From: Halobaculum halobium
GTDB taxonomy: Archaea; Halobacteriota; Halobacteria; Halobacteriales; Haloferacaceae
DNA: 64,000 nt
Assembly (NCBI RefSeq): GCF_030127145.1
Contig: NZ_CP126158.1
Coordinates: 930,001 to 994,000, forward strand
Direction of reading: 5' to 3'
The translations under genes and the position numbers were made by a program. This document shows positions 50,794 through 55,460 of the stretch, piece by piece. Each line of letters begins with the position of its first letter. Within the stretch, counting starts at the first letter, position 1. The notes under the pieces were generated by a model that was not told the DNA's origin, ran no database searches, and saw nothing but the letters and a program-made list of their open reading frames with translations.

Positions 50794-50805
50794 GTTCATA
50801 TGAAC
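50794..50805 (+). promoter_or_regulatory. ArsR operator over the arsR1 promoter
   Basis: Perfect 12-bp palindrome GTTCATATGAAC. Its centre is ~25 bp before ATG 50824, in the place of the TATA box. ArsR/SmtB repressors bind palindromes with TGAAC-like arms, so autorepression is inferred. Confidence 0.6.
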
Positions 50806-50823
50806 GCTTCTGCATTCGTTCGT

Positions 50824-51228
50824 ATGGCGATGACCGAACGGCTCGAACGCCTCATCGCAGACGAGGTGGGCGAGGGCTGCGCGGACGACGTGGACGACCG
50901 ACTGGACGACCTGTCCGCGCTGGACGAGCGCGCCCGCGTCGAGGACGGCGGGGCCGCCGCCGACGTCGACGCGCTGTCGGCGCTGGGCAGCGAAACGCGC
51001 TACCGACTGGCTCGACTGCTCGCGACCGCCGAGGGCGACCTGTGCGTCTGCGAGCTCGAACCGCTGCTGGACGTGAGCGCCTCGGCGGTCAGTCACGCGC
51101 TGTCGACGCTGACCGACGCTCGCCTGGTCTCACGTCGAAAGGAGGGGAAGTGGCGCTACTACGACACCACCGACCGCGCCGACGCGCTGTTGGACGCGCT
51201 CGATGCGACCCGCGGGGTGGAGGCGTGA
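50824..51228 (+). CDS. arsR: ArsR-family metalloregulator 1
   Basis: 134 residues from ATG 50824 (MAMTERLERLIADEV). The winged HTH includes LGSETRYRLARLLATAEGDL, the metal-binding-like ELxVCEL box as GDLCVCELE, the recognition helix SASAVSHALSTL, and the wing RRKEGKWRYYD. Cys-x-Cys in the box is the classical As(III)/Sb(III) sensing pattern. The stop overlaps the arsC GTG start (GTGA at 51225). An in-frame ATG at 50800 lies inside the operator and is unlikely. Confidence 0.92.
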   Translation: MAMTERLERLIADEVGEGCADDVDDRLDDLSALDERARVEDGGAAADVDALSALGSETRYRLARLLATAEGDLCVCELEPLLDVSASAVSHALSTLTDARLVSRRKEGKWRYYDTTDRADALLDALDATRGVEA

Positions 51229-51803
51229 GCGACGAGCGCGAGGGCGAGCGGGGCGAGCCCTCGATTCGAACGGGGAGAGAAACGACCCGCGAGACCGTCG
51301 ACAGCGCGGACGGACGCGGTGCCGCCAGCTCCGCGGACCCTACCGGCGAGGAGCTCGTCTGCCTCGCGTTCGTCTGCGTCCAGAACGCTGGGCGCTCGCA
51401 GATGTCGTACGCATTCGCCCAGCGCGAGGTCGAACGTCGCGGGCTGGAGGGCCGCGTTGAGCTCCTCACCGGCGGCACTCACCCCGCGGACCACGTCCAC
51501 GACGAAGTCGTCGACGCGATGGCCGAACTCGGGACCGACATGTCCGACCGGACCCCCCAGGCCGTAAGTGACGAGGAACTGAACGATTGCGACTACGTCG
51601 CGACGATGGGCTGTTCGACGCTGTCGCTCGCGGACGCGGTGGAGGCGCGCGACTGGGCGCTCGCCGATCCCGACGGGAAGTCGCCCGAGGAGGTGGCCGC
51701 GATCCGCGACGAGATCGGATCGCGGGTCGTCACGCTGTTCGACGAGGTGTTCGGAGAATACGAGGGCGACCCGTCGGCGAACGCGACCGGTGCGGACGGA
51801 TAA
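51225..51803 (+). CDS. arsC: arsenate reductase-like protein (LMW-PTP fold)
   Basis: 192 residues from GTG 51225. A ~42-residue hydrophilic N-terminal extension precedes the domain. The P-loop is FVCVQNAGRSQMSYAFA, with C51 and R57 (Cx5RS). Further Cys at 122 and 130 (NDCDYVATMGC) could serve the disulfide relay, and DWALADPDGKS holds the general acid. It would reduce As(V) to As(III) for export by ACR3. Translationally coupled to arsR1. Confidence 0.9.
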   Translation: MSDEREGERGEPSIRTGRETTRETVDSADGRGAASSADPTGEELVCLAFVCVQNAGRSQMSYAFAQREVERRGLEGRVELLTGGTHPADHVHDEVVDAMAELGTDMSDRTPQAVSDEELNDCDYVATMGCSTLSLADAVEARDWALADPDGKSPEEVAAIRDEIGSRVVTLFDEVFGEYEGDPSANATGADG

Positions 51804-51876: not shown

Positions 51877-51926
51877 GGATGTAGGCGGCCAAAACGGGAT
51901 CTGTCCGATCCGGGTTCAGAACTCAT

Positions 51927-51950
51927 AATTGATTGTGTTTTCAATCAATT
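51927..51950 (+). promoter_or_regulatory. operator-like inverted repeat before the unknown ars-cluster gene
   Basis: Perfect 9-bp arms AATTGATTG and CAATCAATT separated by 6 bp, covering the presumed TATA/start region of the gene at 51961. It shares the core TGT-N-TTTTCAATC with the arsR2 operator at 52396. Confidence 0.6.
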
Positions 51951-51960
51951 GGTAGAGAAC

Positions 51961-52236
51961 ATGACCGGACTCACCGAGTACCTCGGGAAGCCGTTCGACG
52001 CGCTGTTCGCGATCACGTCGAACGAGACGGTTGCGGACGACGAAACGGTTGAGGAGGGACTCTACGCCGACGCGCGGTCGAAGGGTGGCGTCTACTCGAT
52101 CACGAGTACGCAGTCCGGTGAGAGTACCTACGCCGCGTACGACGCGGACGGCTCCCGAGCGGATGCGCTGCAGGAAGCGGAGGTCTCCGACCGTTCTCGG
52201 ACTCCCGGACCCGTTCCACCCGTCGACCGGTCGTGA
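51961..52236 (+). CDS. unknown 91-residue protein of the arsenic cluster
   Basis: ATG 51961 follows the operator closely. The protein begins MTGLTEYLGKPFDALFAIT and its C-terminus is acidic and proline-rich (RSRTPGPVPPVDRS). No family, membrane helix, signal or cysteine is seen, so direct arsenic binding by thiols is not supported. Codon use is haloarchaeal. Its location between arsC and arsR2 and the shared operator imply arsenic-dependent expression. Confidence 0.65.
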   Translation: MTGLTEYLGKPFDALFAITSNETVADDETVEEGLYADARSKGGVYSITSTQSGESTYAAYDADGSRADALQEAEVSDRSRTPGPVPPVDRS

Positions 52237-52395
52237 CGGACGACTGACTCGGTCACAGTCCGATTCGATGCGTTGGCAATCAAACGAAAGTGTGTTCCGC
52301 CCAGCCGTCCGGAACAGCCATCGAATTTTCACCCGACTGTAGCCGCTTATTGGGCCGGCATCCGTCCCGGTTCCCGATCCGTAGCGAAACAACTA

Positions 52396-52413
52396 ATTGA
52401 ATGTATTTTCAAT
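52396..52413 (+). promoter_or_regulatory. ArsR2 operator over its own promoter
   Basis: Arms ATTGAA and TTCAAT separated by 6 bp, with ACTAATTGA ~27 bp before ATG 52423 as the likely TATA box. Similar to the site at 51927. Confidence 0.6.
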
Positions 52414-52422
52414 CGTTGTTCG

Positions 52423-52821
52423 ATGGCACAAGCCACCGAACGACTTCGCCGATATCTCGACGACGAACTCGGGGAGTGTCGCAGCGAGGACGTCGAGCGT
52501 CGGCTCGACGAACTCGGGACCCTCGAGGCCGCACTCGAGAACTCGCAAGTCGAGACCGAACTGGACGTCCTCTCGGCGCTGGCGAACGAGACGCGCTACA
52601 GCCTCGTGCGCGTCCTCGTTGCCGCGCACGAGGAGCTGTGCGTCTGTGAACTGAACGCGGTCGTCGACGTGAGCGAGAGCGGCCTCAGTCACGCCCTCTC
52701 GGCGCTCGTCGACGCCGGGCTCGTCGAGGGGCGCAAGGACGGCCGGTGGAAGAAGTACCGCGCGACCAACCGCGCGGTGGCGCTGGTGACGGTTCTTGGC
52801 GGGAGCGTGCGCGATGAGTAA
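52423..52821 (+). CDS. arsR: ArsR-family metalloregulator 2
   Basis: 132 residues from ATG 52423 (MAQATERLRRYLDDELGECR). Same architecture as ArsR1: LANETRYSLVRVLVAAHEELCVCELN with Cys-x-Cys, recognition helix SESGLSHALSAL, wing EGRKDGRWKKYR. It overlaps the ACR3 gene by 8 bp, so regulator and pump are translationally coupled. The operator type differs from ArsR1, implying separate DNA specificity. Confidence 0.92.
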   Translation: MAQATERLRRYLDDELGECRSEDVERRLDELGTLEAALENSQVETELDVLSALANETRYSLVRVLVAAHEELCVCELNAVVDVSESGLSHALSALVDAGLVEGRKDGRWKKYRATNRAVALVTVLGGSVRDE

Positions 52822-53980
52822 CGCCGACGGCAACGCCCACGAACACGGGCCGAGCTGCGGCTGCGAGGCCTGCGGCGACCCGCGGTCGATGGACTTCCTC
52901 GACAAGTACCTCACCGTCTGGATCTTCGGGGCGATGGCGATCGGCGTCGGCCTCGGGTTCGTCGCGCCGTCGGTGACGGGGCCGATTCAGGACCTCCACC
53001 TCGTCGAGATCGGACTGATCGCGATGATGTATCCGCCGCTGGCGAAGGCCGACTACTCGCGGCTGCGGACCGTCTTCAGCAACTGGCGCGTGCTCAGCCT
53101 GAGCCTCGTCCAGAACTGGCTCATCGGCCCGACGCTGATGTTCGGGCTTGCGGTCGTCTTCTTCGGTGGGGTCGTCCCCGGCCTCCCGGCGCGTCCCGAG
53201 TACTTCCTTGGACTCGTGTTCATCGGGATGGCCCGGTGTATCGCGATGGTGCTCGTGTGGAACGAACTCGCGGAGGGCTCAACCGAGTACGTCACCGGGC
53301 TGGTCGCGTTCAACAGCCTGTTCCAGATCCTCACCTACGGGGTGTACGTCTGGTTCTTCGCACTGGTGCTTCCCTCGATGCTCGGGATGGAGTCGCTCGT
53401 CGACGGGATCACGACGTTCGACGTCACTCCGGTACAGGTGATCGAGGCGATCGTCGTCTTCCTGGGGGTGCCCTTCGCCGCGGGGTTCCTGAGCCGCTAC
53501 GTCGGCACTCGCGTCAAAAGCGAAGCGTGGTACGAGGAGGAGTTCGTTTCACGCGTCGACCCGGTGACGCTCGTCGCACTGCTGTTCACGGTGATCGTGA
53601 TGTTCGCCACGCAGGGCGGCAACATCGTCGCAGCCCCCGGCGACGTGCTCCTGATCGCGGTGCCGCTGACGATTTACTTCGTCGTCATGTTCCTCGTCAG
53701 CTTCGGGATGGGTCGCGGCATCGGCGCAGACTACTCGACGACGACCGCGATCGGGTTCACCGCCGCCTCGAACAACTTCGAGCTGGCCATCGCCGTCGCA
53801 GTCGCCGTCTTCGGCGTCGGCTCGGGTGTCGCGTTCGCGACGGTCGTCGGCCCGCTCATCGAGGTGCCGGTGCTGCTCGCGCTGGTCAACGTCGCGCTAT
53901 ACTTCCAGCGCAAGTTCGACTGGGACGGTCGCGACGACGGTCGCGGCACCACCGCGGGCGCCACCGCGTCCGACGACTGA
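52814..53980 (+). CDS. arsB: ACR3-family arsenite efflux pump
   Basis: 388 residues with ten hydrophobic segments. Family motifs are MYPPLAKADY, NWLIGP, GMARCIAMVLVWNELA (with the conserved essential Cys), NSLFQ, and TIYF. It exports As(III) using the proton or ion gradient. The hydrophilic N-terminus contains HEHGPSCGCEACGD, three Cys (15, 17, 20) and two His, possibly an arsenite or metal site. The gene starts within the arsR2 stop region. Confidence 0.94.
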   Translation: MSNADGNAHEHGPSCGCEACGDPRSMDFLDKYLTVWIFGAMAIGVGLGFVAPSVTGPIQDLHLVEIGLIAMMYPPLAKADYSRLRTVFSNWRVLSLSLVQNWLIGPTLMFGLAVVFFGGVVPGLPARPEYFLGLVFIGMARCIAMVLVWNELAEGSTEYVTGLVAFNSLFQILTYGVYVWFFALVLPSMLGMESLVDGITTFDVTPVQVIEAIVVFLGVPFAAGFLSRYVGTRVKSEAWYEEEFVSRVDPVTLVALLFTVIVMFATQGGNIVAAPGDVLLIAVPLTIYFVVMFLVSFGMGRGIGADYSTTTAIGFTAASNNFELAIAVAVAVFGVGSGVAFATVVGPLIEVPVLLALVNVALYFQRKFDWDGRDDGRGTTAGATASDD

Positions 53981-54020: not shown

Positions 54021-55460
54021 TCAGATCTCCACGTCCGTGTCGACCAGCGCCGCCTCCAGCACCTGCAGCGGGTGGTCGATCTCGTAGCCCGTGCCGTGTT
54101 CCATCTGCATCGAGCAGGTGGGGCACTCGGTCATGCCCGTCTCGCCCTCGGCGTGTTCCATGTGCTCGAACATCTCCTCGCCGATCTCCATCGAGTAGTC
54201 GTACTTCTCTTCTTTCCACCCGTAGGTGCCCGAGATGCCCGAGCAGGAGTCGCCGACGTCCTCCACGTTCACGCCGTCGAGGTGGCGGAACAGCTCCACC
54301 GCCTGCCGGTCGAGCCCCTGGTTCCGGGAGTGGCACGGCGCGTGGTACGCGAAGTCCGGGAGGTCGAGTTGGTCGCCGTCGACCGCGCGGATCGGGTCGA
54401 TCACGTTCTCGTTGATGAGGAGGTACTCAAGCGCGTCGTAGGTGTTGGCCGCGACCCTCTCGGTCCCCTCGAAGTCGAACAGTTCGGGGTACTCCTGTCG
54501 GAGCGCCATCGAGCAGGAGGTGCAGGAGGCGACCACGTCGTACCCCTGCTCGACGGCGTCGCCGAGGTTCTCGACGTTGACCGCGGCCGACCGGCGCGCG
54601 TCGTCGAGCATCCCGTTGGCGAACATCGGCGTGCCCGAACAGCGCTGGTCGGGGACGAGGATCTCGTAGCCGAACGCCTCGTACACGCGGACGAGCGCCT
54701 TCGCCACCTCGACGGTATTGTAGTTGGCGTAGTCGCCGTGGAAGTACGCGATCCGCTTGTCCTCGCTTTCCACCTTCGGGCCGCCGCGCTGCTTCCACCA
54801 ACTCCGGAACGTCTGGTCGGCGAACTCCGGGAAGTCGCGCTCGGCGGTGATCCCGAGGAGCTTCTCGTTGACTTTCTGGACCAGCGAGTTGCCCATGATC
54901 GCGTTCGTGAGGCGCGGCACCTTCGACCCGATGCCGGCGAGGGTGCCGTAGTTCGCGAGGATGCGGTTGCGGAGGTACTCCCGCGAGAGTTTGTCCATCT
55001 GGTTGTCGACGTACTCGCCGCGGGCGGTGTTGTGCATCTGTGACAGCGGCACGTCCGAGGGGCACGCGCTGTCACAGCGCATGCAGTTCGAACAGCCCGT
55101 GATCGAGTCGTCGACCTCCGTGTCCTCCTTGCGCTTGAGTCGCCACTGCTCGGGGCCCTGGAACTTCGGCCCGGGGAACGAGTCATCGACCTCCGCGACC
55201 GGGCAGGAGGTGTCACAGGACGTGCATTTGTAGCAGGAGTCGGCGCCCGGCCGGAGGTCCATCTCCGAGCCCTCGAACACGTCGACGGGCTCGAAGTCGC
55301 CGCCCGTCTCCGTGGCCGTTCCGCCGTCCGTGGCGGCGTCGCTGTCGGGAGCAGCAGCGGTCCCGCCGTCGGCGACGGCGCCCTCTCCGGTCGCCGCGGA
55401 TGGTTCCGCCTCGTCGCCGTCACAGCCGCAGTCACCGTGTGTGTCGTGAGTGTCGTGCAT
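54021..55460 (-). CDS. glpC: glycerol-3-phosphate dehydrogenase subunit C (GlpC)
   Basis: 479 residues from ATG 55460. Two 4Fe-4S motifs lie in CYKCTSCDTSCPVAEVDD and CSNCMRCDSACPSDVPL. The CCG-type cysteine regions include SCTSCSMALRQEYP and DSCSGISGTYGWK. GlpC anchors the dehydrogenase and passes electrons from the catalytic subunits to the quinone pool. The N-terminal ~60 residues are an acidic extension. Its start follows the glpB stop by 6 bp. Confidence 0.93.
   Translation of the reverse strand: MHDTHDTHGDCGCDGDEAEPSAATGEGAVADGGTAAAPDSDAATDGGTATETGGDFEPVDVFEGSEMDLRPGADSCYKCTSCDTSCPVAEVDDSFPGPKFQGPEQWRLKRKEDTEVDDSITGCSNCMRCDSACPSDVPLSQMHNTARGEYVDNQMDKLSREYLRNRILANYGTLAGIGSKVPRLTNAIMGNSLVQKVNEKLLGITAERDFPEFADQTFRSWWKQRGGPKVESEDKRIAYFHGDYANYNTVEVAKALVRVYEAFGYEILVPDQRCSGTPMFANGMLDDARRSAAVNVENLGDAVEQGYDVVASCTSCSMALRQEYPELFDFEGTERVAANTYDALEYLLINENVIDPIRAVDGDQLDLPDFAYHAPCHSRNQGLDRQAVELFRHLDGVNVEDVGDSCSGISGTYGWKEEKYDYSMEIGEEMFEHMEHAEGETGMTECPTCSMQMEHGTGYEIDHPLQVLEAALVDTDVEI

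Follow-up and report, generated by a model that had tools for sequence, protein, structure and literature searches.

The window, i.e., the whole stretch of 64,000 nucleotides of Halobaculum halobium DNA that was analysed, belongs to a 3.46 Mb genome and carries a plus-strand ars cluster. The cluster comprises arsR1, an arsC-like low-molecular-weight phosphatase (LMWP) gene, an orphan gene that we designate X, arsR2, and acr3. Its genes and predicted operators are the following.

50800..50815, plus strand: predicted ArsR1-type operator core ATGAACGCTTCTGCAT (TGA-N9-CA), apparently overlapping the promoter; pattern found in 28/30 arsR1 promoters; 39.5 bits on the ArsR1 matrix
50824..51228, plus strand: arsR1, ArsR/SmtB repressor of the As(III)-sensing type; HTH_5 36.7 bits, NF033788 77.2 bits (above cut-off); CVC motif
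51225..51803, plus strand: arsC-like arsenate reductase of the low-molecular-weight phosphatase fold; PF01451 87.8 bits; TIGR02689 54 bits, below the equivalog cut-off
51929..51944, plus strand: predicted ArsR2-type operator core TTGA-N8-TCAA before X; 32.7 bits on the ArsR2 matrix, 13.5 on the ArsR1 matrix
51961..52236, plus strand: gene X, orphan protein of 91 aa (homologue searches and alignments)
52397..52412, plus strand: predicted ArsR2-type operator core TTGA-N8-TCAA before arsR2; found in 88/98 orthologue promoters among the matches listed, mostly at -26
52423..52821, plus strand: arsR2, second ArsR/SmtB-family repressor; NF033788 74.8 bits (above cut-off); CVC motif
52814..53980, plus strand: acr3, arsenite efflux pump, overlapping the end of arsR2; TIGR00832 372.9 bits against an equivalog cut-off of 282.8

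The start of arsR1 was chosen from its orthologues; an alternative ATG at 50800 lies within the predicted operator. The start of the arsC-like gene overlaps the end of arsR1 by 4 nt. A TATA-like TAATT is found in the X promoter (51926-51930), and the arsR2 promoter has both a BRE-like CGAAAC (52385-52390) and a TATA-like TAATT (52394-52398). Halobaculum saliterrae is the nearest named relative found; it has an identical gene order, and its ArsR2 is 97% identical.

Predicted operator elements in the window and in other genomes

An earlier note on this DNA had pointed to two sites with common letters before X and arsR2, and these are indeed present. The 18-mers ATTGATTGTGTTTTCAAT (51928-51945) and ATTGAATGTATTTTCAAT (52396-52413) have 2 mismatches in 18 positions. 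This identity of 16/18, the best ungapped one between 18-mers of the two intergenic stretches, was matched by 0 of 1000 shuffles. The arms of the X site are perfect over 9 nt (AATTGATTG/CAATCAATT, 51927-51935 and 51942-51950), and those of the arsR2 site span 5 nt (ATTGA/TCAAT).

The note had suggested a genome-wide search for both motifs. On either strand of the own genome, TWATTGA-N8-TCAA occurs with zero mismatches only at the X and arsR2 sites. GTTCATATGAAC, the sequence that the note had seen at the arsR1 promoter, occurs once, and the ArsR1 core pattern has its only zero-mismatch match at the arsR1 site. With 1 mismatch TWATTGA-N8-TCAA gives 12 matches vs 9 for a reversed control pattern; when as many as 3 mismatches are allowed, the 18-mer has a single extra match, at 3 mismatches. 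A search with the 18-mer pattern across 293 genomes was dropped as unspecific, with matches in 114 of them.

The conservation of the ArsR2-type element was assessed on 98 arsR2 loci, i.e., the window and 97 orthologues among the matches listed in a search of 293 genomes, taken mostly by rank (64-93% identity across the aligned part). Forty further ArsR loci were inspected by eye and are outside all counts. TTGA-N8-TCAA is located within 45 nt upstream of the start in 88 of these 98 promoters, nearly always at -26, and the exact dyad is missing from the other 10. Spacing is strict: among the same 98 promoters, spacers N4-7 and N9-11 give 0 matches, N8 gives 88, and N12 gives 5. The conserved element is TAATTGA-N8-TCAA, with the consensus GAAAC-nn-TTAATTGA-N8-TCAA, in which the spacer carries little information.

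The latter bears on the operator proposed in the earlier note, TGT-N-TTTTCAATC. These letters are present at both sites (51934-51946 and 52402-52414). However, TGT-N-TTTTC is ruled out as a shared operator part: it is mostly spacer, because the spacer of the ArsR2 consensus is poor in information, and its letters vary among genomes. In H. saliterrae it is retained at the arsR2 site and absent at the X site.

In two loci (L124 and L144), arsR2 is preceded by another ArsR2-like site, at a distance of about 122-131 nt.

For ArsR1, 30 loci including the window were compared, and TGA-N9-CA was found in 28 of the 30 promoters. GTTCATATGAAC (50794-50805) combines an ArsR1 half-site with the TATA side. 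It was rejected as the operator proper: it is exact in 2/30 arsR1 promoters, TTCAT-N-TGAA is found in 6/30, and H. saliterrae has lost it, the palindrome there being ACTCATTTGAAT. Among six genus members compared, most retain the TTCAT side. TGAAC, the right arm, forms the conserved ArsR1 half-site; the second half-site lies downstream and reads CAATCGTT in other genus members and CATTCGTT in the window.

The distance from TGA to CA is equal in ArsR1 and ArsR2 sites, and the half-site letters differ. The equal spacing makes the two elements sequence variants of a single ArsR/SmtB-type operator geometry. The operator types as the note drew them find no support; both elements fall in one operator class.

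This class, the 12-2-12 site, is well known (PMC8790569). Its trait of conserved inner half-sites at a fixed spacing is present here (N8 in 88/98 promoters among the matches listed). As in the cyanobacterial smt, zia, and nmtA operators of SmtB/ArsR proteins, the inner TGA and TCA are 8 nt apart, and a table in the same source includes AATACCTGAACA-GA-TGTTCAAGTATT and AATACTTGAGTA-AT-TTATCAAGTTCT, which have ArsR1-like and ArsR2-like letters, respectively, at the same spacing. Unlike in the cyanobacterial operators, the inner half-sites alone are conserved here, and they appear to be placed on an archaeal BRE/TATA promoter, judging by the offset, which is nearly always -26, and by the TATA/BRE-like letters. 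The full 12-nt arms pair at chance level: the three sites pair 6, 7, and 5 of 12 positions, which shuffles match in 94%, 49%, and 100% of cases.

Candidate targets of the two repressors

ArsR1 and ArsR2 are 49% identical, and the ArsR-type winged helix is confirmed in both by PF01022 and NF033788 scores above the cut-offs. The cysteines of the CVC pair in the HTH region are both present in 100% of the 30 ArsR1 and 97 ArsR2 proteins, and an extra N-terminal Cys is found in the two sets alike. The sets are unlike in the recognition helix and wing (SxSAVSHALS/RRKEGKWRYY in ArsR1 vs SESGLSHALS/GRKDGRWKKY in ArsR2). These differences appear to fit the different half-site letters.

In leave-one-out comparisons a site's own matrix scored higher for 95 of 96 distinct ArsR2 sites among the matches listed and for 30 of 30 ArsR1 sites; own-matrix scores are flattering, because site anchors were chosen by the best match. 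In the window, the arsR1 site scores 39.5 bits on the ArsR1 matrix and -8.9 on the ArsR2 matrix, and the X site 13.5 and 32.7, respectively.

The locus between ileS and the gene at 54021-55460 was then compared within the genus. Two members (G269 and G263; loci L174 and L177) have arsR1-arsC-acr3, in which acr3 and arsC overlap by 4 nt and arsR2 is absent. No ArsR2-type site was found at this locus in them (best 18.1 and 8.0 bits), nor in two members that have arsR1-arsC only (G210 and G234; best 11.1 and 4.2 bits). Another one (G158) combines arsR1-arsC with arsR2-acr3; it carries an ArsR2-type site (29.9 bits), and X is absent from it. The window and H. saliterrae have arsR1-arsC, arsR2-acr3, and X together. 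From this comparison we infer that ArsR2-type sites come and go with arsR2, and that the pump may be wired to either repressor. The lack of ArsR2-type sites in relatives that lack arsR2, two of which have acr3 overlapping the arsR1-arsC operon, supports the assignment of targets proposed below.

We consider it probable that ArsR1 controls arsR1-arsC and that ArsR2 controls arsR2-acr3 and X, the paralogues binding dyads of the same spacing with different half-site letters. ArsR1 would read approximately ATNTGAAC followed by (T/G)NCAA upstream of arsR1-arsC. ArsR2 would read TAATTGA-N8-TCAA upstream of arsR2-acr3 and, separately, of X. When As(III) is absent, a dimer of either repressor would block TBP/TFB or the polymerase; As(III) bound to the CVC cysteines would release it, by analogy with known members of the ArsR family. 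Haloarchaeal promoters are described as having a TTWT TATA motif and a CGAAA BRE, and 72% of Haloferax protein-coding transcripts as leaderless (PMC4983044). The TAATT near -29 and the GAAAC upstream of it agree with these motifs, so a dimer bound to TTGA-N8-TCAA would occupy the TATA side as well as the DNA leading to the start.

The claim of separate targets made in the earlier note is supported in so far as ArsR2-type sites accompany arsR2 and X, ArsR1-type sites accompany arsR1, and ArsR2-type sites are missing at the locus from the four genus members that lack arsR2. A clean separation does not follow. The arsR2 site of the window scores 38.9 on the ArsR2 matrix and 33.8 on the ArsR1 matrix. 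The latter score is near the average of real ArsR1 sites (34.4), and ArsR1 may therefore bind at the pump promoter as well; the X site reaches only 13.5 on that matrix. The arsR2 site is also one of seven 3-mismatch matches to the ArsR1 pattern in its own genome, and the site before X in G280 scores 31.8 on the ArsR1 matrix vs 20.1 on the ArsR2 matrix; both observations speak against the proposed assignment. Strict separation is thus not assured by the sequences.

A cross-regulated pair is a plausible arrangement, although on balance we do not expect it: both repressors would act at the arsR2-acr3 promoter, ArsR2 alone at X, and ArsR1 alone at arsR1-arsC. The arsR2 site of the window retains the tail CAATCGTT, as is usual for the genus's ArsR1 sites, and ranks first on the ArsR1 matrix of the 98 ArsR2 sites among the matches listed. 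Two of the genus members without arsR2 have acr3 overlapping arsC in one run behind an ArsR1 site. ArsR1 and ArsR2 of Pseudomonas putida repress each other's promoters in vitro (PMC7994332). On the other hand, the 16-nt core alone ranks only 6 of 98 on the ArsR1 matrix, and ArsR2 sites are mostly poor on it (mean 13.0; both for the matches listed).

The 9-nt arms of the X site, with their spacer of 6, might instead form a separate N12-spaced dyad for another binder in this genome. When the 157-nt stretch was shuffled 2000 times, perfect 9-nt arms with a spacer of up to 10 nt arose in only 10 cases, but H. saliterrae and other X promoters conserve the N8 spacing and lack the 9-nt arms, which makes this reading very improbable. 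That the conserved letters are a core promoter only (BRE, TATA, and -10 element) with no operators is hardly credible: TAATT and GAAAC resemble the haloarchaeal TTWT and CGAAA (PMC4983044), but core promoters have no TCAA at a fixed 8-nt spacing, other spacers nearby drop from 88 matches to 0 (N4-7 and N9-11, among the matches listed), and TWATTGA-N8-TCAA without mismatch occurs only twice in the genome.

The assignment of ArsR1 to arsR1-arsC and of ArsR2 to arsR2-acr3 and X has parallels in known systems. P. putida KT2440 already provides a case of two ArsR paralogues: its ArsR1 and ArsR2, connected as a bifan, have non-identical core-promoter sites in one cell and show cross-talk. That strain has two full ars clusters and demonstrated cross-repression, whereas here one locus has split targets and an extra gene, as deduced from its sequence (PMC7994332). 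The four ArsR proteins of Agrobacterium tumefaciens 5A form a network in which each has its own, partially overlapping regulatory profile, but the motifs there are bacterial and outside the 12-2-12 model (PMC7965956). Halobacterium NRC-1 is a haloarchaeon that also has neighbouring ArsR genes (arsADRC and arsR2M), and its arsADRC is arsenite-inducible (PMC3600143). It differs in gene content (ArsA, ArsD, HcsS/HcsL, and ArsM). Its ArsR is 56% identical to ArsR2. TTGA-N8-TCAA was not found in the arsR promoter of pNRC100 (L249 4154-4494; best 16 bits), and therefore this ArsR probably reads another site. Neither the haloarchaeal elements nor X were found in the literature covered by our search, which excluded bioRxiv preprints and most subscription-journal papers.

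The proposed assignment provides a testable candidate operator for the arsR2-acr3 module, which is widespread in haloarchaea and often located on megaplasmids, and it would tie an undescribed gene to the arsenic response. At one locus in one genus, the same pump seems to belong to the ArsR1 operon in some members and to follow its own ArsR2 in others; therefore, the separation of paralogous repressors is directly testable in a small archaeal system.

Gene X

X matches no Pfam family and comes near the cut-off of no NCBIfam model. A search with the single protein gave matches in 11 of 293 genomes at E ≤ 0.01, of which the weak ones in G038, G136, G257, and G016 were dropped as unconvincing. A profile search gave 8 of 293 genomes; one weak match (G207, 22 bits) was dropped, and the remaining seven were those used to build the profile. 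The set was completed with five named X loci (L244-L248), L247 and G172:C1 being counted once. No X was found in the plasmid collection searched.

The exact dyad is present at -31 to -34 in 6 of 11 X promoters, and 10 of 11 have it with at most 1 mismatch, a level that 1.45% of shuffled promoters reach. The sole exception is G051, where ars neighbours are absent. X precedes arsR2-acr3 in 8 of 11 cases (the window, L244, L245, L246, L247, L248, G280, and G182). In G217 it follows an ArsR2-like gene, and acr3 is close by on the opposite strand. In G103 (L166 5049-5324) X has an exact ArsR2-type site and lacks an intact arsR2-acr3 beside it; the pair seems to have been deleted there. X is present at 4 of the 98 arsR2 loci among the matches listed. 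Across 525 kb of ars loci, 11 of 15 plus-strand matches of at least 22 bits outside arsR2 precede X (overlapping loci repeat genes).

Six X relatives (L245, L246, L247, L248, G103, and G217) end in C-x5-C-P-x-C. In X of H. saliterrae (L244 4222-4285), CGT (Arg) codons occupy the three Cys places in a hand alignment of the frames. The tail of the window X (52190-52236) has a 2-nt insertion relative to H. saliterrae, which shifts the reading frame and shortens the protein. X was also considered as an arsenic metallochaperone of the ArsD type; no match to that family was found, and Cys is missing from the window X. The AlphaFold model of X had a pLDDT of 46 and showed no confident fold.

X might be a new small haloarchaeal family of arsenic accessory proteins within the ArsR2 regulon, although we regard the following scenario as doubtful. 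An ancestral C-x5-C-P-x-C tail could coordinate As(III) through three thiolates, and X would then serve ACR3 as a chaperone or buffer. The thiols would have been lost in the Halobaculum line, by Arg replacement in H. saliterrae and by the frame change in the window, and control of the pump would have been rewired within the genus between the ArsR1 operon and ArsR2.

Two minor observations concern the surroundings of X. In Halomicrobium katesii and two MAGs (L246 3865, L247 3864, and L248 3850-3865), a second ArsR2-like palindrome is found some 135 nt upstream of X, and no gene begins at a fitting distance from it. In Halosimplex and Halomicrobium (L245, L247, and L166), a molybdopterin/4Fe-4S/NrfD oxidoreductase cluster that includes a delta-type chaperone lies a few genes upstream of X, as seen in a Pfam run that covers L166 and one gene of L245.
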